From NCBI RefSeq assembly GCF_025947365.1, contig NZ_CP110012.1, positions 5,270,001 to 5,334,000 on the forward strand: a stretch of 64,000 nucleotides of DNA, in the 5' to 3' direction. The DNA is from Flavobacterium sp. N502540. Its GTDB lineage: Bacteria > Bacteroidota > Bacteroidia > Flavobacteriales > Flavobacteriaceae. The position numbers were made by a program, and so were the translations under genes. Below, one piece after another: positions 4,700-21,794 of the stretch. The first letter of the stretch is position 1. Each line of letters opens with the position of its first letter. The notes below the pieces were generated by a model. The model worked only from the letters and a program-made list of their open reading frames with translations, ran no database searches and had not been told where the DNA came from.

Positions 4700-7600
4700 T
4701 TACAGGTCAATATCGATTTCCTGCAGGTCTTTTTTGTTTGCTGTCAACTGTTCTTGTTTCTGAATGAAACTAAGCTGCTCTGCCATGGTTTCAATAGTTC
4801 TGAATTGAAATATATGCCCTATACTCACTTCAACACCGAAACTTTCCTGAATCATATTGGCCAATTTTACGGCTCTTAAACTATGTCCTCCTATTTCAAA
4901 AAAATCATCGGTTACACTGACCTTTTCGATCAACAATATTTCACTCCAAATCTCACAGAGGGTCTTCTCTGTTTCATTTCGATAAGAAACATATTCTCTT
5001 TCCAGTATGGATAAATCAATCTCTGGAAGAAGGTCTTTATCCACCTTTCCATTTTTATTCAAAATGAAATCCTCTACTTCTATAAAATAGGTTGGAATCA
5101 TATAAAATGGAAGTCTGTCTGCCAGATAGGCCTTTAATTCCTTTTGATTCATAGCCTGATTGGCTTTAACAAAAGCAACAATAAATTTATCTTCCGCGGC
5201 CTCTGATCGTTGTTTCACTACTACTACTGCACCATTAATATCCGGATGAGCGTCTAAAGTTTTTTCAATATCATTTAGTTCAATTCGATAACCGCGAAGT
5301 TTGATCTGACTGTCTTTTCTTCCAAAAAATTTGATATTTCCATCCGGCAGCCATAATCCTAAATCGCCAGTTTTATAAACTCTTTCATTGTTAAGCGTCT
5401 GCGGATTCAGGAATTTTTCGGCATTCAATTCTTCTGCATTTAAGTAGCCTAAAGAAAGCCCGTCACCTGCCAGATATATCTCACCAACAACTCCCAAAGG
5501 ACATAACTGTAAATTTTGATCTAAGATGTAAGCCTTAGAATTGTTAATCGGTTTACCAATCGGGATGTCCTCTTCTACGGGTGCTATAATTTTATAGGTT
5601 GCCGAAAATGTAGTGTTTTCGGTAGGGCCGTAACCGTTAATAAGATTGAGCTCGGGATAAGCTTCTAACAATTTACGAATGTGTTTCGCGGATAATTTTT
5701 CACCTCCTGCCAACACATTGATTAATCCTTCAAAAAGAGATACGTCCTGATCTGTAAACTGATTCAATAAACCAGATGTAAACCACATGGTATCTACTTT
5801 TTCTGTTTTTATTAATGCAGAAAGTTTTTTAGTATTTAACAAATCTTCTTTATCGCATAAAACTAGTTTTCCGCCATTAAGCAACGCTCCCCAGAATTCA
5901 AAAGTCGACGCATCAAAAGACACAGAACCTGTAGACAATATGGCGTGTACCGTATCAAAATCGATGTAATTGGTGTTTTTAACCAGTCTGGTTACTCCTT
6001 TATGCGGTACCAAAACTCCTTTTGGATTTCCGGTAGACCCGGAGGTGTACATGATGTATGCCGGAGCGTCAGGACTGTTCGTAATTTGTGGAGCGGGAGA
6101 ATAATTTTCTAAAGTACCTAATTGAATGTCTATGACGATCGTACTTCCCCTAAAGAAATCGATATCATATATATAGTCCATCTGGGTAATGATCATTCTG
6201 GTATTGATATCATCGACAATAAACTCCTTTCTGATTTTCGGACTTTCCACATCGATTGGAACATATACCCCGCCCGCTTTTAAAATTCCGAGTATAGTAC
6301 TGATCAAAAGTTCTGATTTGTCTAAAACAATTCCGACTTTTTCACCATTAGTGAGTCCATATTCTGTCGTTAACAAATGAGCAATTTTGTTCGCATTGCG
6401 ATCCAATTCCTCATACGTCAATTGTCGGTTTTTGTAAACGACAGCTATTTGTCCAGGTGTTTTACTAACCTGCTGCTGAAAAGCGTCGACAATATCCAGG
6501 CAAACCTGAGAATTAAAAGTTCCGCTACTAAAATCTGATGAAAGAAGTTGTCTTTCATCTGCAGACAAATAAGAAAGCGAAGCAATGGCATCACCCGGGT
6601 TTGCAATTACCGCATTCAACAGATTTTGAAAATGTTTCTGAATTTGACGAATAAAACCTGCATCAAAAATATCGGTATTGTAAACTAAGCTAAACTCCAG
6701 TCCTTTTACCGTTTCTACAAAATTGAATGAAACATCAAATCGGCTTACAGTTGCTTTAATTCTTTCATATAAAGCTATTTCAAGGCCTTCGCTGTTTAAA
6801 GAATCTATCTTCTGATCTAAATCTGCATTTTGCAAAACAACGCTGGCATCAAACAAAGGATTTCTGCTAATATCATGTGTCAGATTCAAATCACTGATTA
6901 ATTGATCGAAAGGATAAATCTGATGTTCGTAGGCTTCCTGAGTTAGTTTTTTTACCTTTCGGAATAAGTCCGTTACGGCATCCTTATCTGAAAACTGACA
7001 ACGTAAAGCCAACACATTAATGAAACAGCCTATTTGTCCCTCTAAATCAGTATGATTTCTTCCGGCAATTGGGCTTCCAAGTATAATATCTTCCTGATTG
7101 GTATATTTATAAATCAAGACATTAACTACCGTTAGCAACCCCATGAACAAAGTCAGGTTTTCCTGATCCAGTACATTTTTAAAATTTTCTACTGTTTTGC
7201 TGTCAATGTTTATGGTCGACGTCTCACCATTATATGATTTTATCTTAGGACGAATTTTACTTTTCTGAAGGCTCAAAACAGGAAGTTCTCCTGAGAATTT
7301 CTCCATCCAGTAGGCTTTGTGAACCTGCAACGATTCGTTCTCCAATTGTTGATTCTGCCAGGCGGCAAAATCTTTGTATTGTATTCTAAGCGGTTTTAAA
7401 TTTACGGGAAGCTCATTTTTATGGACTTTGTACAAATGCAGCAGCTCTTCGATAAAAACCTCTATAGACAGCCCGTCGCTAATAATATGATGCATCACCG
7501 CTACCAGTATCGCTTTGGATTCTTCTACCTGCAATACACTCACTTTTAAAAGCGGCCCTTCTGATAAATTAAATACTACCTGAATGAGATTGTTGATGCT

Positions 7601-10423
7601 TTCTTCTAATTCGTTTTCCGGGCGATTGCGAAAATCAACGAAATCTATCTCAAAATTATTCTCCTCATCAGACGATATAAATTGTCTTAATTCCTTATTT
7701 TCATCTTCTTTGAAAGTGGTTCTAAAACTTTCATGTCGTTTGGTTATGGATTGAAAAGCAAAAGCTAAAGCTGCTTTATCCAGATCTCCTGTTAAGGTGT
7801 AGATACTGGGAATTGTATAGGCTTTGTTGGCTTCCTGAAACTGACTCAATGCCCAAAAACGCTGCTGTGATGATGAAACCGCATAACTTGGCTGCTCCGA
7901 TAAAGCTTCTATTTCCTGAAATTCATTTTCCTGTGTCTGAAGTATCGTTTCTGCAAGCGTTTTAATATTTCGATCTTCAAAAACGTTTCCAATGTCTATT
8001 TTTATATTTAAGTTTTTATGAATGGTCGACACCAGGTTCATTGCCTTAATGCTGTGTCCTCCAATGTCAAAAAAATCATCGGTTATACTGATATCTTCTT
8101 TATCAAACAGTTCTTTCCAAATATTGTGCAGGGCTATTTGGATTTCAGTCGTTGGCAAAACAAGCTCTCTGGTTGTTTCCTTATTTGATTTTGCCAGTTT
8201 GTTTAATTCTTTCTGATCTACTTTTCCGTTTCTGTTCAATGGAATCTGAGGCACCTGAGTAATATGAGCCGGAATCATATAGTTCGGCAGTTTTTGTGTC
8301 AGGAAAGAACGAAGCTCTTCAGCACTAATAGTAGCATCGGCAACGAAAAACGCTGCTAAAAATTTCACATCATGGCTGTCTTTGTTTACGAGAATTACAG
8401 CTTCGGTAATACTATTGTAACCCGTTATCTTTCGTTCGATTTCACCTAATTCTATTCTGAAACCACGAATTTTCACCTGACTGTCTCTTCTTCCTAAAAT
8501 TTCTATTGTACCGTCAGGCAGCCATTTACAGATGTCTCCTGTTTTATACAACAGAGCGTTTTCCTGATAAGGATTTTCAACAAAACTTTTTGAAGTGAGT
8601 TCTTCTTTGTTTAAGTACCCCGCTGCAACACCTTCGCCCGAAACATACAATTCTCCTGTAATACCAACAGGCTGTAATTTCATGCTCTCGTTAAGAATGT
8701 AACATTGTGTATAGGAAATTGGTTTTCCTATCGGGATGCTTGGCGCATCTTCTGAAACTTCATCAACTGGGTAAAAAGTTGAAAAAGTAGTGTTTTCGGT
8801 AGGTCCATAAACGTGTATTAGCCTTCCGCTTCCGAAATAATTGACAAACTTTCGCACATGAGATACGGAAACCATTTCTCCGCCAAAAAGAATTTTTCTC
8901 AAGTTTTTAAGACTGTCAATGTCAGTATCCACCATGGAGTTGAACAAAGCCGTTGTCATAAAAACAACCGAAATTTCATTTGCGGTAATAGCCTGAAACA
9001 GCAGCTCAAAATTGAGCACTAAATCTTTCTCCGGAATGTGTAAAGTTGCTCCGTTTAATAATGCTCCCCAAATATCAAAAGTAGAACCGTCGAACGAAGA
9101 ATTTGAGATGGCCAGAATACGATCCTGAGGATCAATTTTGATATAATTGGTTTCTTTCACCAAGCGTACGATACTTTTATCTTTTATCACAACACCTTTT
9201 GGCACTCCGGTTGATCCTGAAGTGTACATGATGTAAGCGATATCTCCCTTACTATTGTTTTGCCAGTTTGCATCGGAAATATTTTCTTCATTAAGCATCA
9301 CGTCTATACTAAATAACGGAATATCATAATGAAACAGGTCATTCAGATACTCGATTTGAGTGATGATCACTTTGGGCTGTGTGTCCGATAAGATATAATC
9401 AAGTCTTTCTGTCGTAAGATTATAATCCAGAGGTAAATAAGTGGCACCCAGTTTTAATGCCGCAGCAAAAGAGAAAATCGTATTGGCCGAATAATCTGTC
9501 ATGATCCCGATAATATCCCCGGATTTAATTCCGTACTCTTTTTGCAATAAACTGGCCAGATGATTTACTTTTCGGTTTACGGCTGTATAGGTGTATTTTT
9601 TTCCTTTATAAACTAAAGCAATGTTCTCAGGCGTTGCCTTTACCTGCTGTTCAAAAATCTCGATAACACTTGCGTGGATCTTCTTCTCAGATTCACCAGA
9701 AAACTCCAGTAACTGTTGTTTTTCAGAGGCGGTAATAAATTCAATATCATCCACCTTAGTATCAATCAGATTACTGCTATTTTCAAGTATATGCGTAAAA
9801 TGCTCCAACATATTCTGAATGAAAAGTGCATCGTATTTTGCAGCATCAAAATGTATGGTAATTGATTCCTCACCCGCAATAGTATCTTCTATTTCCAGAC
9901 AAAGTTTGGCCTGAGCGATTCGATTATTTCTGCGATTTAATTTCTGATATATAAAAGCATATTGAAGGTAATCTTCAGGAGTCAGTTCAATATTTAGAAA
10001 CTCTTTTTCAATTAACTCAAAATCAATGGTATCATAAAGCAGCGTTTCTTCAATCTCCTGTTTGGTTGCGTTTATTGCATCTCTCAATGAAGAAACATTG
10101 GATATAGCAGTATTATAAAACAACAAGGCATCTTTTTCCGACTGCACTCCCTCCAAAATGAAAGGCGATGAAGCTACCCAGATATTTTCGTTATTCGTAT
10201 ATCTTTTTAACACTATATTAAAAACAGACAAATAAATAGTCGCTGCGGCAATGGCGTTCCCTCCTGATAATTTAGCAACCTTATCCAAACAGTTCTTTTT
10301 TAGTAAAATGCTATACTGACCTGAAGGAACCTGTTCAGATCTGCTCAGTAAATAACTGCTGTCGTTACTGTATTGCTTTATTTTGTTCAACCAATAATCT
10401 TGTATGATTTTCTTATCTTTCAT
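4700..10423 (-). CDS. NRPS, C-lobe-A(Ile-like)-T-C-A(Val)-T
   Basis: 1907 aa, second NRPS of the operon, 71 bp after the 2294-aa gene. Residues 1 to ~225 match only the C-terminal lobe of a condensation domain: the protein starts at the YWLNKIK position that opens this lobe, and no HHxxxDG is present. Next come adenylation 1 (~245-760, YTSGSTGVPKG), carrier 1 (DDFFDIGGHSIKA), a full condensation domain (~870-1310, HHIISDG), adenylation 2 (~1340-1810) and carrier 2 (DDFFEIGGHSLRA). Pocket residues read D-G-F-F-L-G-V-T-F (closest to Ile codes, Leu/Val possible) and D-A-F-W-L-G-G-T-F (a Val code). There is no epimerase or thioesterase. The C-terminus ends in the alternating strand EIDIDL, which resembles a docking peptide for the next synthetase. 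Domain order is clear; substrates are predictions by eye. Confidence 0.95.
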   Translation of the reverse strand: MKDKKIIQDYWLNKIKQYSNDSSYLLSRSEQVPSGQYSILLKKNCLDKVAKLSGGNAIAAATIYLSVFNIVLKRYTNNENIWVASSPFILEGVQSEKDALLFYNTAISNVSSLRDAINATKQEIEETLLYDTIDFELIEKEFLNIELTPEDYLQYAFIYQKLNRRNNRIAQAKLCLEIEDTIAGEESITIHFDAAKYDALFIQNMLEHFTHILENSSNLIDTKVDDIEFITASEKQQLLEFSGESEKKIHASVIEIFEQQVKATPENIALVYKGKKYTYTAVNRKVNHLASLLQKEYGIKSGDIIGIMTDYSANTIFSFAAALKLGATYLPLDYNLTTERLDYILSDTQPKVIITQIEYLNDLFHYDIPLFSIDVMLNEENISDANWQNNSKGDIAYIMYTSGSTGVPKGVVIKDKSIVRLVKETNYIKIDPQDRILAISNSSFDGSTFDIWGALLNGATLHIPEKDLVLNFELLFQAITANEISVVFMTTALFNSMVDTDIDSLKNLRKILFGGEMVSVSHVRKFVNYFGSGRLIHVYGPTENTTFSTFYPVDEVSEDAPSIPIGKPISYTQCYILNESMKLQPVGITGELYVSGEGVAAGYLNKEELTSKSFVENPYQENALLYKTGDICKWLPDGTIEILGRRDSQVKIRGFRIELGEIERKITGYNSITEAVILVNKDSHDVKFLAAFFVADATISAEELRSFLTQKLPNYMIPAHITQVPQIPLNRNGKVDQKELNKLAKSNKETTRELVLPTTEIQIALHNIWKELFDKEDISITDDFFDIGGHSIKAMNLVSTIHKNLNIKIDIGNVFEDRNIKTLAETILQTQENEFQEIEALSEQPSYAVSSSQQRFWALSQFQEANKAYTIPSIYTLTGDLDKAALAFAFQSITKRHESFRTTFKEDENKELRQFISSDEENNFEIDFVDFRNRPENELEESINNLIQVVFNLSEGPLLKVSVLQVEESKAILVAVMHHIISDGLSIEVFIEELLHLYKVHKNELPVNLKPLRIQYKDFAAWQNQQLENESLQVHKAYWMEKFSGELPVLSLQKSKIRPKIKSYNGETSTINIDSKTVENFKNVLDQENLTLFMGLLTVVNVLIYKYTNQEDIILGSPIAGRNHTDLEGQIGCFINVLALRCQFSDKDAVTDLFRKVKKLTQEAYEHQIYPFDQLISDLNLTHDISRNPLFDASVVLQNADLDQKIDSLNSEGLEIALYERIKATVSRFDVSFNFVETVKGLEFSLVYNTDIFDAGFIRQIQKHFQNLLNAVIANPGDAIASLSYLSADERQLLSSDFSSGTFNSQVCLDIVDAFQQQVSKTPGQIAVVYKNRQLTYEELDRNANKIAHLLTTEYGLTNGEKVGIVLDKSELLISTILGILKAGGVYVPIDVESPKIRKEFIVDDINTRMIITQMDYIYDIDFFRGSTIVIDIQLGTLENYSPAPQITNSPDAPAYIMYTSGSTGNPKGVLVPHKGVTRLVKNTNYIDFDTVHAILSTGSVSFDASTFEFWGALLNGGKLVLCDKEDLLNTKKLSALIKTEKVDTMWFTSGLLNQFTDQDVSLFEGLINVLAGGEKLSAKHIRKLLEAYPELNLINGYGPTENTTFSATYKIIAPVEEDIPIGKPINNSKAYILDQNLQLCPLGVVGEIYLAGDGLSLGYLNAEELNAEKFLNPQTLNNERVYKTGDLGLWLPDGNIKFFGRKDSQIKLRGYRIELNDIEKTLDAHPDINGAVVVVKQRSEAAEDKFIVAFVKANQAMNQKELKAYLADRLPFYMIPTYFIEVEDFILNKNGKVDKDLLPEIDLSILEREYVSYRNETEKTLCEIWSEILLIEKVSVTDDFFEIGGHSLRAVKLANMIQESFGVEVSIGHIFQFRTIETMAEQLSFIQKQEQLTANKKDLQEIDIDL

Positions 10424-10494: not shown

Positions 10495-13400
10495 CTAAAA
10501 ATTGATTTCGATATTGATTCTGGAAGCTTCCAGTTGTTTTTCTCGTTCGGTTTTAAAACCGTAGGCTCCTATTTCATGTTCTATGTCTTTTGACAGTTCT
10601 TCCAGAAATACCAGATAACGCTCGGCAAAAAGGTCTATGGTGTCTTTGCTAAAAACATCTTTTCTGTATTCCAGAATAAAATCGGAACCGTTTGAAATGA
10701 CCCACAAGTCATATTTAACCTGTTCTGTAGCTATACTTTGCGCCTTTGCCTTAAGGTTTTCATTGATTGTAAATTCATCATGAGTAAGCTCATTCCAGGT
10801 AAAACCGGTATTGATAAAATTTGTTCCTCTGTCTCCCCTTTCAAATTCTAAATCTCTCAGAATTAAATCGATTGGGTACATTTGGTGCTCAAAAGCTTTT
10901 GACAATTTGTGCTGAACCCCTCTGATTATAGTTTCGAAATTTTCATTTTGATGAAGTTTAACCCGTATGGGCAGCAGGTTAACATAATACCCTAGCTGAT
11001 CTTCGAGATGAGCATGAGCCCTTCCGGCAAACGGAACTCCTAATATGATATCCGATTGCTCTGTTTGTACATGCAGAAAACTGAAAAATGCGGCTAAGTG
11101 AAATGAAAATTCAGTGACATTAAGCTTTTTAGCGATTTTCTTTATGGCTGAATTAACCCCGGCATTCAGGAAAAAATCAATTCTACTGCCTTGATCCTCC
11201 ACTTCAGTTGGGAGCAGATACTCATATTTATACTGGAGTGGTTTTAAATGCCCCTGCAGCTCCTTCATCCAGTAAGCATTGGTTATAGCGTTTGTTTCAA
11301 TCTGAGTTCTCAGCCAATGACCGTATTCTTTATACTGAATATCCAATTTTGAAGAAGGCAGAACCGCTTCTTTTTTCAATATTGAATTGTAATTACTGCT
11401 GATCTCTTCTATCAGAAGCTGCAATGACCAGGCATCGGATATGATATGATGAATTACAAATAACAAAACATGATGTTCAGAATCGCTGCGGACTAATTTT
11501 GCTTTAAATAAAGGCCCATTGAACAAATCAAATTCAAAATTGCTTATTTGCTTAATTTCCTGCTTTAGTAACAGTTCTTTGTCGTTAAAGTCGCTAAAAT
11601 CTTCGCATACAATCGAAAGTTTAAATTCTTCTAATGGTGTAATGAACTGTCTGATACTTTTTTCGTCATCTTCTTTAAAAACTGTTCTCAGTATCTCATG
11701 TTTTTTGATAACGCGATAGAAAGCTTCTTTAAAAGCAATAATGTCAAGCGTTCCGTGAAAATGGTATACGGCAGGAATGTTGTAAGCCACCTCATTCCCT
11801 TTAAACTGACTTACCATCCAAAGGCTTTTCTGTGCGTACGACATCTCATGAGAAGCCGCCGCGGGAACTGCTGCAATAGGTTCAAAATTATTGGAGAATG
11901 ATCTCTTTATCAGTTCAGCCTGATCTCTTAAAACGGAATATTCAAATAATTTTTCAAAAGGAACGGTAACCTGTAACTGTTCGTTTATTTTATTAATCAA
12001 CTGCCCCAGCTTAAGACTGTGTCCTCCCAGATTAAAAAAATCATCGGTCGCACTGATGGTCTCTACTGCCAAAATATCTTTCCAGATAAGTGCTACTATT
12101 TTTTCAATCCTTCCTTTTGGCTCAATATAACCACTATTTGTCTCGTTAATTTCATCGATATTCGGAAGTGCTTCTTTGTCTGTTTTTCCATTTGGAGATA
12201 AAGGAATAAAAAGAACCTCAACATAATATTGCGGCACCATATAGGCAGGCAGTTTGCTTTGCAGATAGGCTTTCAAATCATCTTTAGAAATAGAATTACC
12301 GGCTGTATAGTATGCCACTAAAGTATCAGCACCTTTAAGTTGTTTTACAGCCACCACAACTTGTTTTACATCTGCTGAAAATTGCAGGAGACCATTTTCT
12401 ATTTCGTCCAGCTCTATTCGATAGCCTCTTAGTTTTACCTGATGGTCTTTTCTTCCAAGAAATTCAATATTCCCGTCAGGAAACCATTTAACCATATCGC
12501 CTGTATCGTATAAAACACTTCCTTCGACAAATGGATTTTTAATAAATTTAGCTGCCGTAAGTTCATCTTTATTCAAATATCCCAAAGCTACTCCTTCGCC
12601 GGCTAAATAAAGTTTTCCAACAATACCCAGTGGCGTAAGCTGTAGATTTTTGTCTAATATATAAGCCTGTGTATTGGAAATAGGTTTTCCAACCGGAATT
12701 GTTTTATAAGCCTTGCCTTTTTCTAACTGGTAATACGTACTATAAGTCGTATCCTCAGAAGGTCCGTACAGGTTTCTGATTTCTGCTGAAGTGCGCAGCA
12801 ATTCTCTGGCAATATCAACCGGAAACGGTTCACCCGCTAAATTGATGATACTGGCATTTTCTAATGAAGAAAAATCTTCCTCCATCAGACTTCGTATACT
12901 GGAAGGAACTGTATTCAGTAAAACTTTTTTATCGGTTTTTAATTCTTTACTTATCTCCAAAGCATTGCTAAGCAGTTTTATAGTCTTTCCAACTGATAAC
13001 GTAAAAAACATTTCATAGGCCGAAAGGTCAAAACAATGTGAGGTTACGGCATAGACCAAATCAAAACGTTCTGTATTGAATTCTTTTTTAGCCCAGTATA
13101 AGAGTGCTGTAACATTTTTATTGGTAATCAGAACGCCTTTCGGTTTACCTGTTGTTCCCGAAGTATAAATAACATAAGCCAAATCTTCGGCTCTGTTTAT
13201 TTTTGGAAGATTTTCGATACTATATTGTTGTTTCTTTACCTGAAACTTACTCCATTCGTTTTCGTCAATTACAACTTTGCAATTACTATCTTCTACAATA
13301 TATTTTATACGATCCTCAGGATAATTAACATCCATCGGAACATAAGCTGCTCCTGATTTAAGCACTCCTAAAATCGTTATGAGCAAACGCTCATCTCTTT

Positions 13401-16400
13401 TTAAACGAACACCTACTAAATCGTTTGGTCTGATCGCATAATTTTCTCTCAGATAATCCCCCAATTGATTGGATTGCTCGTGGAGTTCCTTATAAGTCAA
13501 CTGTACATCATTGAAAATAAGTGCACAATCATTTGGTGTTTTGACTGCCTGAGATTCGAGCAGATCAACAATAGTAGCTTCTTTCGGAAAGTAAATTTCA
13601 GTATCATTGAATGTTTTCAGCAACAATTCTTTTTCTGATTCCTCTAAATATTCAATGGTATCAATCGTAACATTTGCATCCGTAAATACAGTCGTCAACA
13701 AATTCTCAAAATGTTTGAAGATCGCATTAATCCAAAAGGCATCGTAGAGATCGGTATTGTATTCCAATCTTAATAACAGCCTTTCTTCCTGCTCTGTGAA
13801 AATAAAACTAAGATCAAACTGAGAAGTATTTCGTTTCACTTCATAAGGCTCTACGTCAACTCCCAACATTGGAACATTGGTCGATATGGTGTTTAATTGT
13901 GCCTGATTTTGCAGTACAACCAACACATCAAACAAGGCCGATCTTGAAGCATCTCTTTTTAAATTAAGTTTGTTGACTAAAGTACTGAAAGAGTAATTCT
14001 GATGCTCATAAGCCTCGATTAAGATTTTTCTTTGCAGCTCTAATAAGGTCGAAAAACTATGCGTTCCGTTTATTTCGGTTTTAATCGCTAAAGTGTTTAA
14101 AAATAATCCCAGTTGGTTTTCCAGATCCGGGTGCTCCCTTCCGGCTATCGGAGTGCCCAGAACAATCGTATTCTGATTCGTATAGCGGTACAATAAAGCA
14201 TTGATTCCGGCCATTAGCGTCATGAACGGGGTAACAGTATTCGTTTTAGAAAAATGCTTTAATTTTGATAAAAAAGCCTCCGAAAATTGATACGAAAGCG
14301 TATTGCCATTATAAGTTTGTCTGACCGGACGGCTTCTGTAACTTGGCAATTCCAGAACAGGAATATCTTCTTTAAATACAGACAACCAATAGTTTTCTGA
14401 ATCTAAAACCGCTCCTTCGTTTTCCTGCGACTGTAACCATGCTGCATAATCTTTAAACTGAATTGCCGCAGGTGAAAAATCAATCGGTTTTTCCTGAACC
14501 AGATTATTGTAAGCAGCTACAATCTCTGAAAACATCAGTTCTAACGACCAGCCATCGCTTATGGTATGCTGTACCACCAACGAAAGAATATGTTCCTTTT
14601 CTTCTGTTTTTAATAATGCTGCTTTTACTAATGGCGCCTTCGTTAAATCAAAAATAGTCGCTTGTTGTTCCTTTAAATATTGAGAAATCTCTTCTGTGCT
14701 CTTGTTCAGATAATTTTCGTGAGTAAGAGCAAAATTCCATTCGCCTTCTTCTAAAATGTACTGACTTATTTCGCCATCATCGCCTGCTTTAAAATAGGTT
14801 CTTAAAATTTCATATTTAGCGATTAAAAGACGAAAAGCTTTCTCCAATTTTGAGACTTCCAAATCACCTTTAAATTTTAAGGCTCCATGCATGTTGTAGG
14901 CACTATTACCGCCTTCAAACTGGCTCAACACCCAAATTTTATGTTGTGAAGAGGTTAACGGGTAATATTCCTGCGCTTTCGCTTTGGGAATTACCTTATA
15001 ACCTCCTTTTTGTATTTTTTTACTTATTTGTGCAATAGTAGGAGTTAAAAAAAACTCTTTATACGAAATAGATCCCTCTAACTCTTTGTAAATATGATTA
15101 ATTACCTGACCGATCATTAAGCTGTGTCCTCCCAAATCGAAAAAGTTGTCTTCGATACCCACTTTTTCGATCCCTAAAATTTCCTGCCAAATAATAGTCA
15201 GCGTTTTTTCTGTTTCACTTTTCGGGGCTACATAATTTGCATTTGATACCTGAGTCAACGGCAAATTTTCAAGAACCTTACGGTCAATTTTTCCATTTGG
15301 TGTCAACGGAATTTTATCGACACCAATAAAATAATGCGGTATCATAAAAGCCGGTAGCTTTTCCTTAAGGTAATTTTTTAAAATTTCGTGATTTACCACT
15401 TTAGTTTTAGTGAGATAGACCACCAAACTTTGCGCTCCGTTTTTTTGTAATACCAGAGCAACGGTTTGTGTAATATTTTCTGAAAAAGAGAGCACTGCGT
15501 TTTCAATTTCTCCCAATTCGATGCGGTATCCTCTTAATTTTACCTGATAATCTTTTCTTCCCAGGAAGTCAATAGTTCCATCCGAAAGCCATTTGGCCAT
15601 GTCTCCGGTATCGTACATCAAAGATTCTTCTTTAAACGGATTCCGTATGAATTTTTCAGCAGTTAGTTCAGGACGATTCAAATATCCTTTTGACAGTCCA
15701 TCACCCGAGATGTACAATTTTCCGGCTACACCAACAGGTACTAATTCTAAATTTTTATCCAATAGGTAAACCTGAGTATTCGCTAATGGTTTCCCTATCG
15801 AAACTGAAGCAGTGTACTCTTTTTGCGGTGATAATCTATAAACTGTACTGTACGTTGTATCTTCAGATGGCCCGTATAAATTTCTTATCTCGGCATTAGT
15901 CTGTACTAATTTCTTAGCAATATCAACCGGAAAAGGTTCACCTGCCAGATTTATTATCGCAGCATTTTCTAAACTGTATCCGCTTTCAATAGTATTTCGA
16001 ATACTTGATGGTACGGTATTGATCAATACCTTTTTATCGTGCTGAAGCGCTTCTCCAATTTCGAGTGCATTGTCCAGAATTCTTATTTTTTTCCCAATAG
16101 AAAGAGGATAAAACAATTCGTAAACCGAAAGATCAAAGCAATAAGAAGTTGCCGCATAAACCACATCAAAAGCAGCAGCACTAAACTCCTCCTGTGACCA
16201 ATAAAGTAAAACAACTGCATTATGATGCGTAATCATAACCCCTTTCGGGTTTCCGGTAGTTCCCGAAGTGTAAATGATATACGCTAAGTCCGCAGACTGA
16301 TTTAGTATCTCAGGATTGTCTGTTTTGTAATCGTCTTTTTGATTGAGAAAATTTCGAAATTCATTTTCATCTATAACCACTTTACACTGACTGTCCTCTT

Positions 16401-17379
16401 CGATATATTTGATTCGCTCCTCAGGATAATTAACATCGACAGGCACATAAGCTGCACCGGATTTAAGAATCCCTAATATAACTACTGTTATAGATTCGCT
16501 TCGTTCCAGTTTTATTCCAACTAAATCATTAGGCTGAATATCATACTCTTGTCTGAGATAATGAGCTAACTGATTCGCGTGCTGATTCAGTTCGTTATAA
16601 CTCAATTCCTTGTCCTTAAAAATAACAGCTGTATGAACTGGTGTTTTTGCTGCCTGCTCCTCAAATAACTCAACCAAAGTTTTAGTCGGATAATTTTTTA
16701 CCGAAGGATTAAAAGAGTTTAACAATTCTTCTTTCTCCAACAAAGTAACCACCGGTATTTTATCAACCGAATCATTCATATAAGACTCAAGTTGCAACAG
16801 CCAATTGGCGTAAGTGTTTAAAAAATGTGCTGCTACATGATCCTCTATAAACGAAACATCATAGGAAAGAAATAACTCAAATTCTGTATCCTTTTTGTTT
16901 ACTGATAATGAAAACGGAAAGCTATTTTTTACGTGGGCTGATTTTGAATTGTAGAAAAAACCAAAAAGCGCATATTCAGCAAAAGGATATTTTTCCTGTA
17001 ACGCATCCTCATACTCCGAATGTTTATAAACTTCCTGTATTTCCTTTTTAACTTCCCCTAAATAATCCTTAAATGATTGGCCAGATGCAGAAATACTTTT
17101 AAACAATAATGCAATTTCAGCATCAGTAGGTTTCAACGTGAAAATGAAACTCTCCACTTCAAAATAGCGTTGCAGTAAGGCCGTATAAACCGTAGTTAAA
17201 ACGGTTAATTCTGCTATTGCATTCTCACCGGTAAGTTTTTTAAAAAACGCAAGATTTTTGGTATCAACCTGTATGTTCTTACTACTCCCATTTTGGGGCT
17301 TAACACTATTGATCAGGGGCTTATTTTTAACTTTTGTTACCCAATAGTTCGAAATACTTTTTTGTTCGATGGTTGTCAT
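10495..17379 (-). CDS. NRPS, C-lobe-A(Ala)-T-C-A(Ala)-T-C
   Basis: 2294 aa, first NRPS of the operon. It starts (residues 1 to ~215) with a condensation C-lobe lacking HHxxxDG. Next come adenylation 1 (~225-720), carrier 1 (NFFDLGGHSLMI), condensation (~825-1250), adenylation 2 (~1270-1750), carrier 2 (DDFFNLGGHSLKL) and a full terminal condensation domain (~1850-2285). Both adenylation domains read D-L-Y-N-N-A-L-T-Y, a code associated with Ala, and share the unusual GPSEDTTYST stretch, suggesting module duplication. The internal condensation motif is QHTISDG, so the first His is lost but the catalytic second His is kept. The terminal one is HHIISDA. Ending in a condensation domain means the acceptor carrier must be on another protein, presumably the 1907-aa synthetase. 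The C-terminus is INIEINF, a second strand-like tail. Confidence 0.95.
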   Translation of the reverse strand: MTTIEQKSISNYWVTKVKNKPLINSVKPQNGSSKNIQVDTKNLAFFKKLTGENAIAELTVLTTVYTALLQRYFEVESFIFTLKPTDAEIALLFKSISASGQSFKDYLGEVKKEIQEVYKHSEYEDALQEKYPFAEYALFGFFYNSKSAHVKNSFPFSLSVNKKDTEFELFLSYDVSFIEDHVAAHFLNTYANWLLQLESYMNDSVDKIPVVTLLEKEELLNSFNPSVKNYPTKTLVELFEEQAAKTPVHTAVIFKDKELSYNELNQHANQLAHYLRQEYDIQPNDLVGIKLERSESITVVILGILKSGAAYVPVDVNYPEERIKYIEEDSQCKVVIDENEFRNFLNQKDDYKTDNPEILNQSADLAYIIYTSGTTGNPKGVMITHHNAVVLLYWSQEEFSAAAFDVVYAATSYCFDLSVYELFYPLSIGKKIRILDNALEIGEALQHDKKVLINTVPSSIRNTIESGYSLENAAIINLAGEPFPVDIAKKLVQTNAEIRNLYGPSEDTTYSTVYRLSPQKEYTASVSIGKPLANTQVYLLDKNLELVPVGVAGKLYISGDGLSKGYLNRPELTAEKFIRNPFKEESLMYDTGDMAKWLSDGTIDFLGRKDYQVKLRGYRIELGEIENAVLSFSENITQTVALVLQKNGAQSLVVYLTKTKVVNHEILKNYLKEKLPAFMIPHYFIGVDKIPLTPNGKIDRKVLENLPLTQVSNANYVAPKSETEKTLTIIWQEILGIEKVGIEDNFFDLGGHSLMIGQVINHIYKELEGSISYKEFFLTPTIAQISKKIQKGGYKVIPKAKAQEYYPLTSSQHKIWVLSQFEGGNSAYNMHGALKFKGDLEVSKLEKAFRLLIAKYEILRTYFKAGDDGEISQYILEEGEWNFALTHENYLNKSTEEISQYLKEQQATIFDLTKAPLVKAALLKTEEKEHILSLVVQHTISDGWSLELMFSEIVAAYNNLVQEKPIDFSPAAIQFKDYAAWLQSQENEGAVLDSENYWLSVFKEDIPVLELPSYRSRPVRQTYNGNTLSYQFSEAFLSKLKHFSKTNTVTPFMTLMAGINALLYRYTNQNTIVLGTPIAGREHPDLENQLGLFLNTLAIKTEINGTHSFSTLLELQRKILIEAYEHQNYSFSTLVNKLNLKRDASRSALFDVLVVLQNQAQLNTISTNVPMLGVDVEPYEVKRNTSQFDLSFIFTEQEERLLLRLEYNTDLYDAFWINAIFKHFENLLTTVFTDANVTIDTIEYLEESEKELLLKTFNDTEIYFPKEATIVDLLESQAVKTPNDCALIFNDVQLTYKELHEQSNQLGDYLRENYAIRPNDLVGVRLKRDERLLITILGVLKSGAAYVPMDVNYPEDRIKYIVEDSNCKVVIDENEWSKFQVKKQQYSIENLPKINRAEDLAYVIYTSGTTGKPKGVLITNKNVTALLYWAKKEFNTERFDLVYAVTSHCFDLSAYEMFFTLSVGKTIKLLSNALEISKELKTDKKVLLNTVPSSIRSLMEEDFSSLENASIINLAGEPFPVDIARELLRTSAEIRNLYGPSEDTTYSTYYQLEKGKAYKTIPVGKPISNTQAYILDKNLQLTPLGIVGKLYLAGEGVALGYLNKDELTAAKFIKNPFVEGSVLYDTGDMVKWFPDGNIEFLGRKDHQVKLRGYRIELDEIENGLLQFSADVKQVVVAVKQLKGADTLVAYYTAGNSISKDDLKAYLQSKLPAYMVPQYYVEVLFIPLSPNGKTDKEALPNIDEINETNSGYIEPKGRIEKIVALIWKDILAVETISATDDFFNLGGHSLKLGQLINKINEQLQVTVPFEKLFEYSVLRDQAELIKRSFSNNFEPIAAVPAAASHEMSYAQKSLWMVSQFKGNEVAYNIPAVYHFHGTLDIIAFKEAFYRVIKKHEILRTVFKEDDEKSIRQFITPLEEFKLSIVCEDFSDFNDKELLLKQEIKQISNFEFDLFNGPLFKAKLVRSDSEHHVLLFVIHHIISDAWSLQLLIEEISSNYNSILKKEAVLPSSKLDIQYKEYGHWLRTQIETNAITNAYWMKELQGHLKPLQYKYEYLLPTEVEDQGSRIDFFLNAGVNSAIKKIAKKLNVTEFSFHLAAFFSFLHVQTEQSDIILGVPFAGRAHAHLEDQLGYYVNLLPIRVKLHQNENFETIIRGVQHKLSKAFEHQMYPIDLILRDLEFERGDRGTNFINTGFTWNELTHDEFTINENLKAKAQSIATEQVKYDLWVISNGSDFILEYRKDVFSKDTIDLFAERYLVFLEELSKDIEHEIGAYGFKTEREKQLEASRINIEINF

Positions 17380-17625
17380 TTAAAAGTCTAATAATTTGAA
17401 GGATATTTACTTCTTCAAAATGTGATGAAAAAGTATAAGAATCCGTTTAGTTGTAAAAAACTGTCTCTTTAATAAAATAAATCAAAAGCATCCAATCGAA
17501 ATAAGTCTACTAATTATATGGATACTATAGATATTTAAACTACTACTCTTCCGTAGAAAAAACCACTTCTTATTCAGAATTTAACTTCATAAAATGAAAA
17601 GCCGGTTTTTTTATACTCGATAACA
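17380..17625 (-). promoter_or_regulatory. Leader between antiterminator gene and first NRPS gene
   Basis: A 246-bp AT-rich gap inside the presumed operon. It has no good intrinsic terminator and no clear TAnnTTTG box on the minus strand. A CCGTA half-site lies at 17551-17555; on the minus strand it reads TACGGAAGAGTAGTAG, which can fold as a weak CTAC/GTAG hairpin. This is where a NusG-type specificity factor could load, but no recruitment sequence can be identified from one example. Confidence 0.35.
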
Positions 17626-18135
17626 TTAATTCTGCAAATAATAGGATGGAATTGTAGCAGTGATATTTTTCTGCAGCGAATCAATTCTAACCACAATTTT
17701 ATTGGTGTTGTTTGTATTTAGTACTTCACATTCTAATCCTTTTAAGGAACCGTAAGAGATCGTTTTAAAATCTCCAACACTAAATTCTTCAACATGTGTT
17801 TCAACCTCAGTGACGTCATTGTTTAAAAGCAAAAGTTCAATTTTTCGCATTTCTTCATCACTCACTTTGGCATACTCCATTCCAAAGCGGATGTACATGC
17901 ATGCTCCATTAATCGAAAGCGTTTTATAAAAATCTAATGAAGAATTTATCTTTACAAAAACATAAGACGGAAAAAGTAATTTCTGAATACTTTTCTTTCT
18001 ATCCGTACGTGTACTCTGTACCTGAATAGTTGGTAAAAAAGCCTTAATAGACAAATATCCGAGCATATCAAATACTTTTCTTTCGTGATGAGATTTAACA
18101 TACAAGACGTACCAACCATTGTGAATTGACTTCAT
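17626..18135 (-). CDS. NusG-family specialised transcription antiterminator (UpxY/LoaP-like)
   Basis: 169 aa from the ATG at 18133-18135. A GTG three codons upstream (18144) is possible, but the ATG sits directly before the conserved N-terminus. Residues ~5-110 are a NusG N-terminal domain: GWYVLYVKSHHERKV, then FLPT, then DRKKSIQKLLFPSYVFVKI. Residues ~120-169 are a KOW-type barrel (FSVGDFKTISYGSLKGLECEV). It is a paralogue, not housekeeping NusG: it is alone, not next to secE or ribosomal genes, and sits directly upstream of a >17-kb NRPS operon. Family members such as UpxY (Bacteroides capsule operons) and LoaP (Bacillus antibiotic operons) bind RNA polymerase and promote reading through long operons. 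I infer that this one serves the NRPS operon. Confidence 0.88.
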   Translation of the reverse strand: MKSIHNGWYVLYVKSHHERKVFDMLGYLSIKAFLPTIQVQSTRTDRKKSIQKLLFPSYVFVKINSSLDFYKTLSINGACMYIRFGMEYAKVSDEEMRKIELLLLNNDVTEVETHVEEFSVGDFKTISYGSLKGLECEVLNTNNTNKIVVRIDSLQKNITATIPSYYLQN

Positions 18136-18196
18136 AAATAACACTCCCTTTTTTTAATAGCTTCGCTGTCCTCGGTTACGAGAATATTTATCTAAA

Positions 18197-18290
18197 TACG
18201 GATTTGAAAAATTAAAACGCATTTTATTTACGGCTAAAATAGTAGTAGTATTTACATAAAAATTACGGACTTTTTAAATAAAAACTACGG
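18197..18290. promoter_or_regulatory. Cluster of four TACGG half-sites upstream of NRPS operon
   Basis: TACGG occurs on the plus strand at 18197-18201, 18229-18233, 18264-18268 and 18286-18290 (spacings 32, 35 and 22 bp). The last two lie in a longer direct repeat (AAAAATTACGGACTTT / AAAAACTACGGGCTTT). The first reads TACGGATTT, identical to nine bases of the palindrome at 20965-20979. They lie 62-155 bp upstream of the antiterminator start. Binding by the neighbouring response regulator is inferred. No TAnnTTTG box facing the operon was found here. Confidence 0.5.
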
Positions 18291-18465
18291 GCTTTCATAT
18301 TAAAAAACGTAAAACACTGATAATAAATCAAACACTTGCTATTTTTGCATGAAAAGAAAACACCTCTATAACTCCCTAAAAACCAATAATTAAGCTTTGA
18401 AAAACAATTCAAATATTTCGATTTAAAAAAATTGTAACCGGGAAGTACTTTGTTTTCAAAAAAAG

Positions 18466-18500
18466 AAAACCCGACAAGTTTTAAAAAACTGTCGGGTTTT
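18466..18500 (-). terminator. Intrinsic terminator of the histidine kinase gene
   Basis: Stem AAAACCCGACA pairs with TGTCGGGTTTT and extends through AGTTTT/AAAACT with one bulge. On the minus strand it is followed by a T-rich run. It lies 45 bp after the kinase stop and separates the kinase from the NRPS operon. Confidence 0.85.
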
Positions 18501-18544
18501 AAGGACTTTTGTGGAGATCGTTAAAATTTTGCCGTTTTGAAGCG

Positions 18545-20569
18545 TCAAGCCAGCTCCTTAATATTAAACCGGACTTCAATTTTGGTGCCTTTTCCAATTT
18601 GTGATTCAATACTAAACTTACCTTTTAGCGAACTGGTTCTTTCTTTCATATTGTTTAAACCTATGCCTTCTTTTTTAGTTTTCGTATCAAACCCCTGACC
18701 ATTGTCAGTAATTGACATTTTTAGGACACTATTAGCCTCAAACCTGATTTTAATTTCACATTTTGTGGCATTAGCATATTTATTAACATTTAATATCGCT
18801 TCCTGAATGATGCGGTATAAATTTATTTTGTAAATGTTCTGAATAGCCGACCATTCAAAATTTTCGTCGGTTGTATAAATAAACTGAGTGGCACTGATAT
18901 CCTTTTGACATTCGATTAAACTCAACAGTAAAACATTAAAATCATTACCATCTAAAAAAGAGCTGTGGCTTAGATCATGTGATACCATTCTAACCTCGTT
19001 TTCTATATTTTGCAGTTCAAAAATATACTCTTTTCTTTTTTCGATTATTTCCGCTTCAACTTTAGAATTAAAAAAGCCCAGATTCATTCGGACTCCATAA
19101 ATTCTATTCATTATTCCGTCATGAAGTTCCTTTGCAATTTTAGATTTTTCATTATCTCTTGCACTGTTTATTTTTTCATGCTGTTCCATCAGCAGTAAAT
19201 AGACTTCCTCATTTGCAGACTTTTGTTTTTTAAGGAACTGCAATTCTTTATTTTTATACTTGGAATATCTTAAAATAACAATAATCAGCAATAGAAAAAT
19301 CGATGCAAATGAGAGGATTAAAATATAGAAATTTTTCTTCGTCAAAATCTTATTTTCATCTTCAATTCTGGAAGTTTCGTACTCAATTCTTGCATATTTA
19401 TTGTGTGCATTTTTTTGAACAATATTGATACTATCACTCAAATTAATGTACTCGTTTGCATAATAGAGACTATTTTTCTTATCCAGAGTAGAAAGCAGCT
19501 TTAATGAAGTTAAAATTTCATTACTGTTCTTAATTCGCGTGGCTAACAAATTGGCTTCTTTTAAAACTTCGATTGCTTTAGCCGTATCTTTTTGTGTGAG
19601 GAAATACTCTCCAATGCGGATCTTTTTATATAGAATATCTGCTTCATCTCCTTTATTTTTCAAAATCTCTAATGATTTGGAAAACATTTCATAAACATTG
19701 TCATATTCACCAATTTTCATTTTAGAATAGGCCAGATTACTCAGGACATTAGCATACAATCGGGGCCAATTTTTTTCTAAATCACTGGAAAGTAAACCTT
19801 CCAGCTTTGCTATAGACTTTAAATATTCCCCTTTTAAATCATACAGATTACAGATATTAATCGTAGCCGTTACATTGTAATTGGTTATTTCGTCCTTGTC
19901 AATATGATTCAGCTTGATCTTTTCCAGATTATTCAAAGCCATACGGTGGTACCACAATGCTTTATCATAATTGACCAGCTTTTCAAGACAATTCCCCATT
20001 AAAGCATTGCAGCAATAGAGTAACTGCTGATCTTTAGATTCTTTTAAATACTGTAAGGCTTTAGAGATTTCAACTTCGCATTCGATATAATTTCCATCAT
20101 AAAACAAAACGTAAGCTTTGTTAAATAACATTCGTGCCGTATTATCGTAATCTGATAATGTAGAATATACTTTTTCGGCTTGCAGGTAATAAAAATAAGC
20201 GCTGTCCTTTTTTAGATTCCCATAGCTGTCGCCAATATAATAAAATGCTTTGGCCATTCCTTCTTTGTCGTCAACCTCTTTAGATAATCTCAAAGCCTCT
20301 AAACTGGCTGCCAAAGATTTTTTGGGATTTTTATTGTAATAGTATTCTGTGGACAGCTTAAAATGAAGATTTCTGGTAACAGAATCATTATTCTGATCCT
20401 TTAACAAATTAAATATAGAGTCTAAATATTTCTCTTTCTCCTTCCCTTTTAAATACTTATCATCCACTGAAATAGTAATTTTATCATTAGCATTCGCGAA
20501 TTCATTTTTCCTGCAGGAAAAAAAAGTCAACACAAGTAATAAACAAACTATTTTAAAAGGTGTCGTCAA
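18545..20569 (-). CDS. TPR-containing sensor histidine kinase, HisKA_3 type
   Basis: 674 aa. The only start preceding the signal sequence is a TTG at 20567-20569; the next Met is about residue 111. The N-terminus (CLLLVLTFFSC) looks like a lipoprotein or export signal. TPR-like helical repeats fill about residues 60-390, a transmembrane helix is near 408-428 (FYILILSFASIFLLLIIVIL), and a short coiled stretch leads to the dimerisation helix with phospho-acceptor His in AKELHDGIMNRIYG (near residue 480). A HATPase_c domain follows, with the GxGLxNM-type motif GIGLNNMKER and a second G-box GKGTKIEV. This LytS/NarX-like class pairs with LuxR-type response regulators; the one at 21126-21794 is the obvious partner. 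The signal sensed is unknown. Confidence 0.92.
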   Translation of the reverse strand: MTTPFKIVCLLLVLTFFSCRKNEFANANDKITISVDDKYLKGKEKEKYLDSIFNLLKDQNNDSVTRNLHFKLSTEYYYNKNPKKSLAASLEALRLSKEVDDKEGMAKAFYYIGDSYGNLKKDSAYFYYLQAEKVYSTLSDYDNTARMLFNKAYVLFYDGNYIECEVEISKALQYLKESKDQQLLYCCNALMGNCLEKLVNYDKALWYHRMALNNLEKIKLNHIDKDEITNYNVTATINICNLYDLKGEYLKSIAKLEGLLSSDLEKNWPRLYANVLSNLAYSKMKIGEYDNVYEMFSKSLEILKNKGDEADILYKKIRIGEYFLTQKDTAKAIEVLKEANLLATRIKNSNEILTSLKLLSTLDKKNSLYYANEYINLSDSINIVQKNAHNKYARIEYETSRIEDENKILTKKNFYILILSFASIFLLLIIVILRYSKYKNKELQFLKKQKSANEEVYLLLMEQHEKINSARDNEKSKIAKELHDGIMNRIYGVRMNLGFFNSKVEAEIIEKRKEYIFELQNIENEVRMVSHDLSHSSFLDGNDFNVLLLSLIECQKDISATQFIYTTDENFEWSAIQNIYKINLYRIIQEAILNVNKYANATKCEIKIRFEANSVLKMSITDNGQGFDTKTKKEGIGLNNMKERTSSLKGKFSIESQIGKGTKIEVRFNIKELA

Positions 20570-20614
20570 AAGTTTAAGTATTATTTTACAATTTCAAATA
20601 TAGGGTTTTGAAAT

Positions 20615-20656
20615 AAAAAGACTATAAGATTTAAAAATAAATCAAATAGTCTTTTT
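20615..20656 (-). terminator. Intrinsic terminator after the small lipoprotein gene
   Basis: AAAAAGACTAT (20615-20625) pairs with ATAGTCTTTTT (20646-20656), extended inward by GATTT/AAATC. It lies 18 bp past the lipoprotein stop and has T-runs in both directions. It makes the kinase a separate transcription unit or one fed by read-through. Confidence 0.8.
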
Positions 20657-20673
20657 TATAAACACAAAAACAT

Positions 20674-20907
20674 TTAGTCTTTTCTGGTTGGTCTTGTAAT
20701 TTCGGGATCTCCCTCAGTATTTAACAAGTCTGTATTCGAATTAGTCGTTCCATTTACCATCTTATTTGTTTTTGGATCTAATTTTTCATGCAGATTTTTT
20801 GACTGACTACTTTGAGTTTTCGGAGTTTCGTAATCATCATTTGTACAAGAAAAAGTCAACAATGCAACAGCAATTAGCAATCCCGGAATAAATAACTTCG
20901 TTTTCAT
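20674..20907 (-). CDS. Small predicted lipoprotein, unknown function
   Basis: 77 aa. Signal peptide MKTKLFIPGLLIAVALLTFSC with a lipobox-like TFSC cleavage site; the mature protein is ~57 polar residues (Asn, Thr, Lys and Asp-rich) ending in PTRKD. No domain is recognised. It sits between the histidine kinase and the divergent response regulator, with a TACGG-N5-CCGTA palindrome 58-72 bp upstream of its start, so it is probably under the same control and could be an accessory or output of the system. It could also be an unrelated short lipoprotein. The call as a real gene rests on the clear signal peptide and its own terminator. Confidence 0.7.
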   Translation of the reverse strand: MKTKLFIPGLLIAVALLTFSCTNDDYETPKTQSSQSKNLHEKLDPKTNKMVNGTTNSNTDLLNTEGDPEITRPTRKD

Positions 20908-20964
20908 AAAAATAACTTTAATTGATTATTAAAACAAAAAAACATCAAACTGTGGATTAAAATG

Positions 20965-20979
20965 TACGGTAAATCCGTA
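20965..20979. promoter_or_regulatory. Palindrome TACGG-N5-CCGTA (operator 1)
   Basis: Perfect 15-bp inverted repeat TACGGTAAATCCGTA, 58-72 bp upstream of the small lipoprotein gene. A TTTG (minus strand) lies about 15 bp on the promoter-proximal side. Size and symmetry suit a dimeric LuxR/NarL-type regulator. Confidence 0.6.
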
Positions 20980-21071
20980 ATATTTCATTTAATTCATGTT
21001 AAAAATGCGACTTGTACTAATTATCAGTCATTCAACCCGTCTCTTTAGTTGTAAAACAATCAAAATTCCAT

Positions 21072-21086
21072 TACGGAAAAACCGTA
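21072..21086. promoter_or_regulatory. Palindrome TACGG-N5-CCGTA (operator 2)
   Basis: Perfect inverted repeat TACGGAAAAACCGTA. It ends 8 bp before the -7 box TACATTTG (21095-21102) of the response regulator gene, so it covers the place where a -33 element would be. Its centre is 107 bp from operator 1. Confidence 0.65.
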
Positions 21087-21094
21087 GTTTTTCT

Positions 21095-21102
21095 TACATT
21101 TG
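21095..21102 (+). promoter_or_regulatory. -7 promoter element of response regulator gene
   Basis: TACATTTG matches the Bacteroidota TAnnTTTG consensus 24 bp upstream of the ATG. No TTG/TTTG -33 box is seen; the palindrome occupies its position, as expected for a regulator-dependent promoter. Confidence 0.6.
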
Positions 21103-21125: not shown

Positions 21126-21794
21126 ATGAATCTTAATATTTTGATCGTCGACGACCATCCAATGACGGTGGACAGCTATATCAATCTCTTATCTGATGGT
21201 GAGTTTCAGCAAAATTTACCAAATTTTATTAAAAGTCATAATTGTGAAGATGCTTATAACAAAATCATTCTTCATCACAAGCAAAATATTAATATCGATT
21301 TTGCTTTACTTGATATTAATCTGCCACCCTACAAACAATCCAATATTAATGACGGTATAGATTTGGCCTATTTAATCAAGGAAAAATTCCCGAATTGCAA
21401 AATAGTACTCCTTACCATGCGCAGTGAGCCTTTGACTGTCGACAAAATAATAAAAGGAATTCGACCTGAAGGTTTTATATCCAAAAGTGACATCAATTTT
21501 GAACAGTTTCCTGTAATTTGTAAAAACATTATTAATGGTGAAATATTCAGAAGCAATACTATTGTAGAATCTCAAAGGGAACTATTCAAGAAAAATATTA
21601 ATTGGGACAATCACGACAATCAAATTTTGATTCTAATCTCTGAAGGGGTAAAAACAGTAAATCTTCCCGAATATATTCCGCTTTCAATGAGTGCCATAGA
21701 AAAAAGGAAAGCCAACATAAAAGATCAGCTGTTAAAAGGAAAAGGAAGCGACAAAGATCTAATTGAAAAGGCTAAAACGCTGGGATTATTATAA
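21126..21794 (+). CDS. Response regulator, NarL/LuxR-like
   Basis: 222 aa. Receiver domain residues 1 to ~130: acidic pair in ILIVDDHP, phospho-acceptor Asp in ALLDINLP, Thr/Ser in VLLTMRSE and Lys in GFISKSD. The C-terminal ~60 residues (ILILISEGVKTVNLPEYIPLSMSAIEKRKANIKDQL) resemble a LuxR-type helix-turn-helix, with SMSAIEKRKANIK in the position of the recognition helix. The gene is divergent from the lipoprotein and kinase genes. The palindrome in its own promoter suggests autoregulation; TACGG half-sites upstream of the NRPS operon suggest that operon as a target. Partnership with the TPR kinase is inferred from position and family. Confidence 0.9.
   Translation: MNLNILIVDDHPMTVDSYINLLSDGEFQQNLPNFIKSHNCEDAYNKIILHHKQNINIDFALLDINLPPYKQSNINDGIDLAYLIKEKFPNCKIVLLTMRSEPLTVDKIIKGIRPEGFISKSDINFEQFPVICKNIINGEIFRSNTIVESQRELFKKNINWDNHDNQILILISEGVKTVNLPEYIPLSMSAIEKRKANIKDQLLKGKGSDKDLIEKAKTLGLL

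Follow-up and report, generated by a model that had tools for sequence, protein, structure and literature searches.

What governs transcription of a long nonribosomal peptide synthetase (NRPS) operon, and whether the two-component system encoded beside it takes part, is the question raised by the window analyzed here, the whole 64,000-nucleotide stretch of Flavobacterium sp. N502540 DNA (contig NZ_CP110012.1, positions 5,270,001 to 5,334,000) that forms part of a 5.41-Mb single-contig genome. The NRPS operon, headed by an UpxY-family antiterminator gene, adjoins genes for a tetratricopeptide repeat (TPR) histidine kinase, a small lipoprotein and, in the divergent direction, a response regulator. 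Comparison with relatives makes it very likely, in our judgment, that the sensor-regulator pair controls itself, the small lipoprotein, and the NRPS operon by way of CCGTA half-sites and that this layout recurs at such clusters in related species. A first-pass annotation of the window had posited autoregulation and NRPS control by a NarL/LuxR-type regulator partnered by the TPR kinase; as a prediction, this is supported by the comparative evidence.

The same annotation had placed two exact 15-bp palindromes, TACGG-N5-CCGTA, one at each of the divergent promoters, and this was borne out: both are present, and the number expected in the window by chance was 0.00 (100 shuffles). The palindrome of the regulator promoter, TACGGAAAAACCGTA (21072 to 21086), lies at about -35 to -21, with its center at about -28, and is kept in relatives; its CCGTA ends at 21086, and the -7 box TACATTTG (21095 to 21102, plus strand) follows after N8, the 8-nucleotide gap that had been described. 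The second palindrome (20965 to 20979) is best assigned to the lipoprotein promoter, where it occupies about -49 to -35 (center, -42) and is followed after exactly N22 by a -7-like TTTTTTTG (20935 to 20942, minus strand). Both centers are reckoned from the placement of TAnnTTTG at -12 to -5 in the excerpted text of PMC9723704. A scan for sigma-70 promoters found them no more frequently than in shuffles, as expected for this phylum. The whole genome holds three copies of the palindrome and three of the pattern read backwards, our control throughout, and the third copy falls inside a reading frame that by eye resembles an M42-type peptidase; the palindrome was found at no other promoter in this genome. 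Across 150 Flavobacterium genomes, the palindrome occurred 0 to 6 times per genome and its backwards form 0 to 7 times, one genome with 35 copies excepted. The genome-wide count proposed at the outset proved uninformative, and because it equals its control, the argument rests on conservation in place. What is distinctive is the presence of two palindromes within 107 bp at one promoter region.

Conservation in place was assessed in loci fetched by homology to the regulator, of which there were 79; 78 were scored, a partial one (L231) being left out, and they fell into classes of 38, 17, and 23 with regulators at least 70%, 54 to 69%, and less than 54% identical to that of the window. The named locus set was chosen blind to the motif, as were most of the larger stretches, some of which were picked for nearby palindromes and a few for comparison. 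An exact palindrome lay within 700 bp upstream of the regulator gene in 34/38, 12/17, and 11/23 loci, respectively. The layout TACGG-N5-CCGTA-N8..10-TANNTTTG recurs at the regulator promoters of relatives: TANNTTTG stood at N8 to N10 in 32 of the 53 distinct palindrome-bearing promoters (named loci plus window) and at N19 to N22 in 8, which belong to distant clades. In the opposite direction, 34 of 55 distinct segments have T-N3-TTTG exactly N22 away from the palindrome, and no other offset occurs more than once. Inverted CCGTA pairs at 10 bp numbered 57 in the 78 loci, the next commonest spacing having 4 and all other spacings together 46. A composite regulator-promoter pattern was present in 42 of 398 Flavobacterium genomes (backwards control, 1/398), including 17 of the first 150, and in 16 of these 17 it stood beside a regulator match. 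Many species have a single palindrome shared by both promoters; the window and its nearest relatives have two, one for each.

At the NRPS promoter, the conserved element is a direct repeat. The NRPS box, CCGTAGTTTTTATTTAAAAAGTCCGTA (18264 to 18290, minus strand), is a 22-bp repeat, CCGTA-N17-CCGTA on the gene strand, and is the only copy of its pattern in this genome; a -7-like TATTTTAG (18234 to 18241, minus strand) follows its proximal CCGTA after exactly N22. The first-pass annotation had pointed to TACGG half-sites at 18197, 18229, 18264, and 18286 and to a CCGTA at 17551. All five stand at those positions, but a phased array of four half-sites was rejected, as only the distal (18286) and proximal (18264) half-sites are conserved. 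The half-site at 18229 abuts the downstream side of the -7 box, and a CCGTA is present at that place in only 3 of the 50 boxes aligned, those of the window and of two nearly identical relatives; this third CCGTA (18229 to 18233) falls near the expected start site. The half-site at 18197 is further downstream in the presumed leader, and the CCGTA at 17551, of opposite orientation and located between the antiterminator gene and the first NRPS gene, is part of no box, the window having one box only. Single half-sites carry little information: the window holds 99 copies of TACGG, and shuffles hold 53.6.

A box pattern, CCGTARWTNWTNNNNNNAAANYCCGTA, was written by hand from 11 loci, all from genomes among the first 150, and a search of the 398 Flavobacterium genomes returned 50 sites, spread over 28 genomes, against none for the backwards control; 26 of the 50 come from the 248 genomes that had no part in its design. 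Their consensus is AAgtCCGTAATTTTTAT.taAAAAGTCCGTAATTTTTA.aT.aAT.tTACT..TATTTT.G, with lowercase letters for 50 to 70% agreement. On a position weight matrix (PWM), the window box scores 77.2, against a training minimum of 42.1 and a maximum of 7.2 in 2.95 Mb of reversed sequence. When TA[TC]TTT, TAATTT, or TAAATT was sought at N17 to N27 after the proximal CCGTA, it stood at N22 in 46/50 sites and at N21 in the other 4; the exact TANNTTTG serves as -7 box in 13/50, and the box is thus usually off consensus. In the 78 loci, 67 direct CCGTA pairs are spaced at 22 bp; the next spacing has 5, and all other spacings from 5 to 100 bp total 97. NRPS or polyketide synthase (PKS) motifs follow within the first four same-strand genes (13 kb) after 44 of the 50 boxes, and a PKS gene identified by Pfam approximately 6 kb downstream of the L091 box raises the total to 45/50. 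In another locus (L094, about 6600 to 7100), a seemingly decayed NusG-like gene lies between the box and the NRPS gene. The box is within 6 kb of the regulator gene in 31/50 cases, at 6 to 20 kb in 5, at 30 to 70 kb on the same contig in 7, and on other contigs in 7, although in drafts the last may be nearer than they appear, that of G374 being a probable contig break. Twelve of the 14 remote boxes (more than 20 kb away or on another contig) precede NRPS/PKS motifs, and the other two are at contig ends. The locus fetched from Flavobacterium pectinovorum DSM 6368 (L176) is among those that carry a box.

We propose that the TPR histidine kinase, an RcsB/NarL-type regulator, and the small lipoprotein form a control unit wired to specialized-metabolite operons, in which phosphorylation would govern a regulator that recognizes the CCGTA half-site. 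A regulator dimer on TACGG-N5-CCGTA would act at two divergent promoters, its own and that of the lipoprotein. At its own promoter, the site lies over the -33/spacer region of the core and the -7 box is a consensus one, which favors autorepression or fine tuning of the regulator gene over simple activation. At the lipoprotein promoter, a center at about -42 and a poor -7 box would suit class II-type activation, and at the NRPS/PKS promoters, two CCGTA elements repeated directly with a 22-bp period would present themselves on the same face of the DNA. The constant element would be the proximal half-site, on the same strand and 22 nucleotides from the -7-like box at both the lipoprotein and the NRPS promoters, where the geometry of contact between RNA polymerase and the proximal protomer would be the same; the distal half-site would vary, being inverted and 10 bp or direct and 22 bp upstream, and a flexible linker between the receiver dimer and the DNA-binding domains would permit both topologies. 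These positions, with the degenerate -7 boxes, favor activation of the NRPS and lipoprotein genes, and the NRPS/PKS promoters are probably activated by the regulator. That it represses them instead is unlikely: the palindrome at its own promoter does overlap the core, and sign cannot be read from sequence, but at the NRPS promoters the repeats occupy about -61 to -35, upstream of the core, at a fixed 22-nucleotide distance, and a -7 box that is usually off consensus is what activator-dependent promoters would be expected to have.

Whether the factor at the NRPS box is this regulator was addressed through co-occurrence, the regulator being sought in the first 150 genomes and in 48 more of the 398. 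Among the 150, a regulator at least 69% identical was found in 12 genomes and the box in the same 12 (12/12), with the box in 0/138 others. The 48 were hand-picked (16 with the box, 6 with the promoter pattern alone, and 26 large genomes); the box occurred in 16/18 with a regulator at least 70% identical and in 0/30 others. All 28 box genomes carry a regulator at least 70% identical. Condensation domains (1e-30) were detected in 22/150 genomes, and of the 14 with at least seven matches, 10 have both regulator and box and 4 have neither (Fisher P of 0.001, ignoring descent). These four NRPS-rich genomes (G008, G018, G053, and G079) lack a regulator at least 70% identical, that of G079 being 63%, and have no box; a PWM scan of their NRPS stretches (L337 to L342), which do not comprise every NRPS gene, likewise returned no box. 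Two box genomes, G004 (PKS) and G112, are outside the 22 with condensation domains. Because of this co-occurrence and the NRPS-rich genomes with neither, the box appears to track the regulator rather than the NRPS genes.

It could nevertheless be supposed that the palindromes are the regulator's autoregulatory sites but that a different CCGTA-reading factor, one that simply accompanies it in this group of species, binds the NRPS box. The half-sites do differ in orientation, direct as opposed to inverted, and co-occurrence in related species is confounded by descent. We hold this improbable, somewhat more so than repression: the 5-bp core is shared, the lipoprotein and NRPS promoters both place it N22 before a -7-like box, 31/50 boxes stand no more than 6 kb from a regulator gene, and the four NRPS-rich genomes that lack a regulator at least 70% identical have no box. 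Moreover, loci with regulators less than 54% identical again hold direct CCGTA pairs at 22 bp (31 sites in 14/23 loci; next spacing, 1), with TA..TT at N22 in 16/31 and at N21 in 4/31; such repeats are rare in the 54 to 69% group (3/17 loci).

A role at the RNA level, whether as hairpins, as terminators, or as UpxY leader elements, is highly improbable. Specialized NusG paralogues use leader elements, and both palindromes were flagged as hairpins by a terminator scan, but the sites precede the sequences that we take for -7 boxes, the repeat at the NRPS promoter is direct and not inverted, there is no Rfam match, and a first gene of NusG length (169 to 172 amino acids) follows at most 5/50 boxes, similarity having been checked for the window and L091 only. 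Chance or compositional repeats, for which the frequency of TACGG in the window might be adduced, are rejected on the zero expectation in shuffles, the zero backwards box matches in 398 genomes, and the single spacing of 96 that stands out, 67 against at most 5.

Several observations count against control of the NRPS promoters by the regulator as set out above. The bare palindrome count in this genome is matched by its control (3 and 3); 13/53 distinct regulator promoters have no exact TANNTTTG within 45 nucleotides, T-N3-TTTG at N22 is absent from 21/55 segments, and 3 of the 38 near loci lack the palindrome even with one mismatch allowed. Of these 38, 12 lack a box in the DNA that was fetched, and 15 lack an NRPS/PKS motif. 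Five of the 50 boxes do not precede recognized NRPS/PKS genes; two (L291 and L298) are at contig ends, and the other three (L100, L284, and L286) precede genes that by eye are secreted-, TonB-receptor-, and hydrolase-like. G300, with a 73% identical regulator, showed no box in the strict search or in the 12.7 kb fetched; G396 has only a variant box; G112 has regulator and box, with the box before a gene of another kind; and the box of G316, which no NRPS gene adjoins, has a second regulator, just 66% identical, 2.3 kb away. Owing to shared descent, the genomes in the co-occurrence counts are not independent of one another, and the 70% threshold was set with the data already in view. In this genome, no box was found in stretches of two other NRPS regions (2.985 to 3.045 and 5.045 to 5.125 Mb; L327 to L333), which do not take in every NRPS gene, and the regulator would therefore not be the master of all NRPS genes here.

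The nearest parallel is the ComP-ComA system. In the excerpted account of PMC4797271, ComA of Bacillus subtilis, a tetrahelical helix-turn-helix (HTH) regulator, uses one half-site, TTGCGG, as inverted and as direct repeats, with spacers of 4 and 5 nucleotides, respectively, both in most target promoters and at class I and class II-type positions; srfAA is a target. As far as that account extends, the present regulator is alike in its tetrahelical HTH and in a half-site in both arrangements, here predicted sites of which both arrangements are conserved, and differs in the half-site itself, CCGTA, and in having 5-nucleotide inverted and 17-nucleotide direct spacers at different promoters. The kinase partner here is a TPR protein beside a small lipoprotein, and the phylum is another. 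The srfA operon makes the lipopeptide surfactin. ComP-ComA is a quorum-sensing system whose kinase senses a secreted peptide pheromone; here the small lipoprotein would be a candidate for the signal. RcsB, NarL, LiaR, and DesR share the fold and domain order of our regulator but are approximately 20% identical to it and have other sites and targets. A literature search, judged by titles and with subscription papers mostly outside it, found no description of this regulon, and to our knowledge no regulator of NRPS/PKS clusters has been described in Flavobacterium. Two-component control of specialized metabolism is already known; as far as we have seen, the new elements are a conserved grammar with two topologies, a lipoprotein that would be the third partner, and boxes remote from the regulator. 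Alongside ComA, the system would be another example of a tetrahelical-HTH regulator with a half-site that seems to function in two topologies, with the useful difference that the distance from the proximal half-site to the -7 box stays constant. The box appears exact enough to predict from sequence which clusters this regulator governs in genomes of the group, remote ones included, and would give a readable handle on when NRPS/PKS clusters switch on; manipulation of the regulator or kinase, or reporter fusions to the box, may be a route to waking silent clusters.

The regulator gene (21126 to 21794, plus strand) encodes 222 amino acids with a receiver domain, above the cutoff for PF00072, and a C-terminal tetrahelical (NarL/LuxR/GerE-type) HTH; the GerE profile gave no match to this protein (P0001) in Pfam at an E value of 0.01. 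D10, D63, and K120, which include the phosphoacceptor aspartate and the conserved lysine, are invariant in 33 sequences, and among homologues 42 to 99% identical, S187, S189, E192, K193, R194, and K199 are invariant around the predicted recognition helix, which fits an invariant half-site. The window regulator shares 99% identity with its counterpart in Flavobacterium tructae CCUG 60100; the second boxed cluster of that species (L272), whose box is a remote one, had no blastn match in the stretches of our genome compared, from which it may simply be absent. The small lipoprotein gene (20674 to 20907, minus strand; 77 amino acids), an open reading frame that length filters overlook, has the lipobox LTFSC and a conserved C-terminal tail, here EGDPEITRPTRKD. 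It is present in 42/56 loci, with GDP or GEP and a P/K-rich end in the tail, and in most relatives examined it sits between regulator and kinase, with a variable middle and a tail of the GDPSNPKPPRK type; the lipoprotein is a candidate for the missing signal. The kinase (18545 to 20569, minus strand) combines TPRs, a putative HisKA_3-type H box, and an HATPase domain, with a lipobox-like signal and one transmembrane helix at the N terminus, by eye. In Pfam, TPR_12 and HATPase_c are above cutoff and HisKA_3 is below it (18.8 bits; cutoff, 24), and the NCBIfam NarQ/UhpB/LiaS kinase models align below their own cutoffs; its adjacency to the regulator gene points to it as the cognate sensor.

The NRPS operon would have its own promoter; between the operon and the kinase gene stands a terminator-type hairpin with a U run (18466 to 18500, minus strand; fold, -17.5 kcal/mol; z, -4.8) that a simple terminator scan does not list. 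The first gene of the operon (17626 to 18135, minus strand) most likely starts at ATG 18135 rather than GTG 18144, an L091 relative beginning MKSIQNGW. The product, P0002, passes the NCBIfam UpxY cutoff (NF033644, 115.7 bits; cutoff, 100) but heads an NRPS operon, whereas UpxY proteins of Bacteroidetes are best known from capsule operons, and it would aid transcription of the long operon. The minus-strand NRPS genes that follow encode 2,294 amino acids (10495 to 17379; Pfam Condensation, AMP-binding, and PP-binding), 1,907 amino acids (4700 to 10423; by Pfam), and 2,170 amino acids (1 to 4606, extending beyond the window start; L087, 94 to 6606). The same-strand run continues approximately 20 kb past the window, as far as was fetched, and includes a CmlA-type diiron beta-hydroxylase gene (L334, 16439 to 18055). 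An extended half-site, AAACTACGGNCTTT, has a second exact copy at 4185220, which was set aside, as the PWM lists no box in the surrounding 7 kb (L114). Outside the genus, the box was found in 2/299 genomes, one being this genome, against 2/299 for the backwards pattern; the other, in G621, was dismissed as being at chance level, with no TA..TT at N22 and no NRPS gene in 1.5 kb.

The genes first downstream of the repeats in the distant clades are mixed. A double-glycine-leader-like small peptide lies within 1.2 kb of 7 of the 31, by a loose pattern with no random-position control (L214, 8680 and 10719; L216, 10924, minus strand; L227, 991; L230, 10707 to 12048). When four such peptides were scanned, two gave weak matches below cutoff to models of ribosomally synthesized and posttranslationally modified peptides or bacteriocins and two gave none; in L230, three repeats stand in a row before a VKOR-domain protein. 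This suggests, as a lead, an early origin for the CCGTA grammar, which one lineage would have turned to NRPS/PKS targets. More tentatively, and on balance doubtfully, the circuit may sense density or the envelope, with the regulator-induced lipoprotein and its conserved tail serving the TPR kinase as ligand or cosensor, and the circuit may be a shared switch that turns on unrelated NRPS and PKS clusters throughout Flavobacterium, while distant relatives use the same 22-bp repeat elsewhere, including at double-glycine-leader-like peptides; the family may then govern chemical antagonism.

The genome with 35 palindromes (G132; backwards, 1) falls outside the 99 genomes that gave a regulator match at 1e-40. 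Its copies have differing flanks, often attTACGG...CCGTAaa in the 14 inspected (e.g., L042 and L064 to L077), and may represent paired terminators or the regulon of a different factor. Other clades have tandem kinase-regulator pairs (G124, G073, G111, and G098; L110, L109, L108, and L112) in which a palindrome lies just 3' of the regulator gene, before the next gene, and in L112 (G098), two palindromes with A-rich centers, at 1620 and 4801, flank a kinase-regulator pair whose members are 33% and 41% identical to those of the window.

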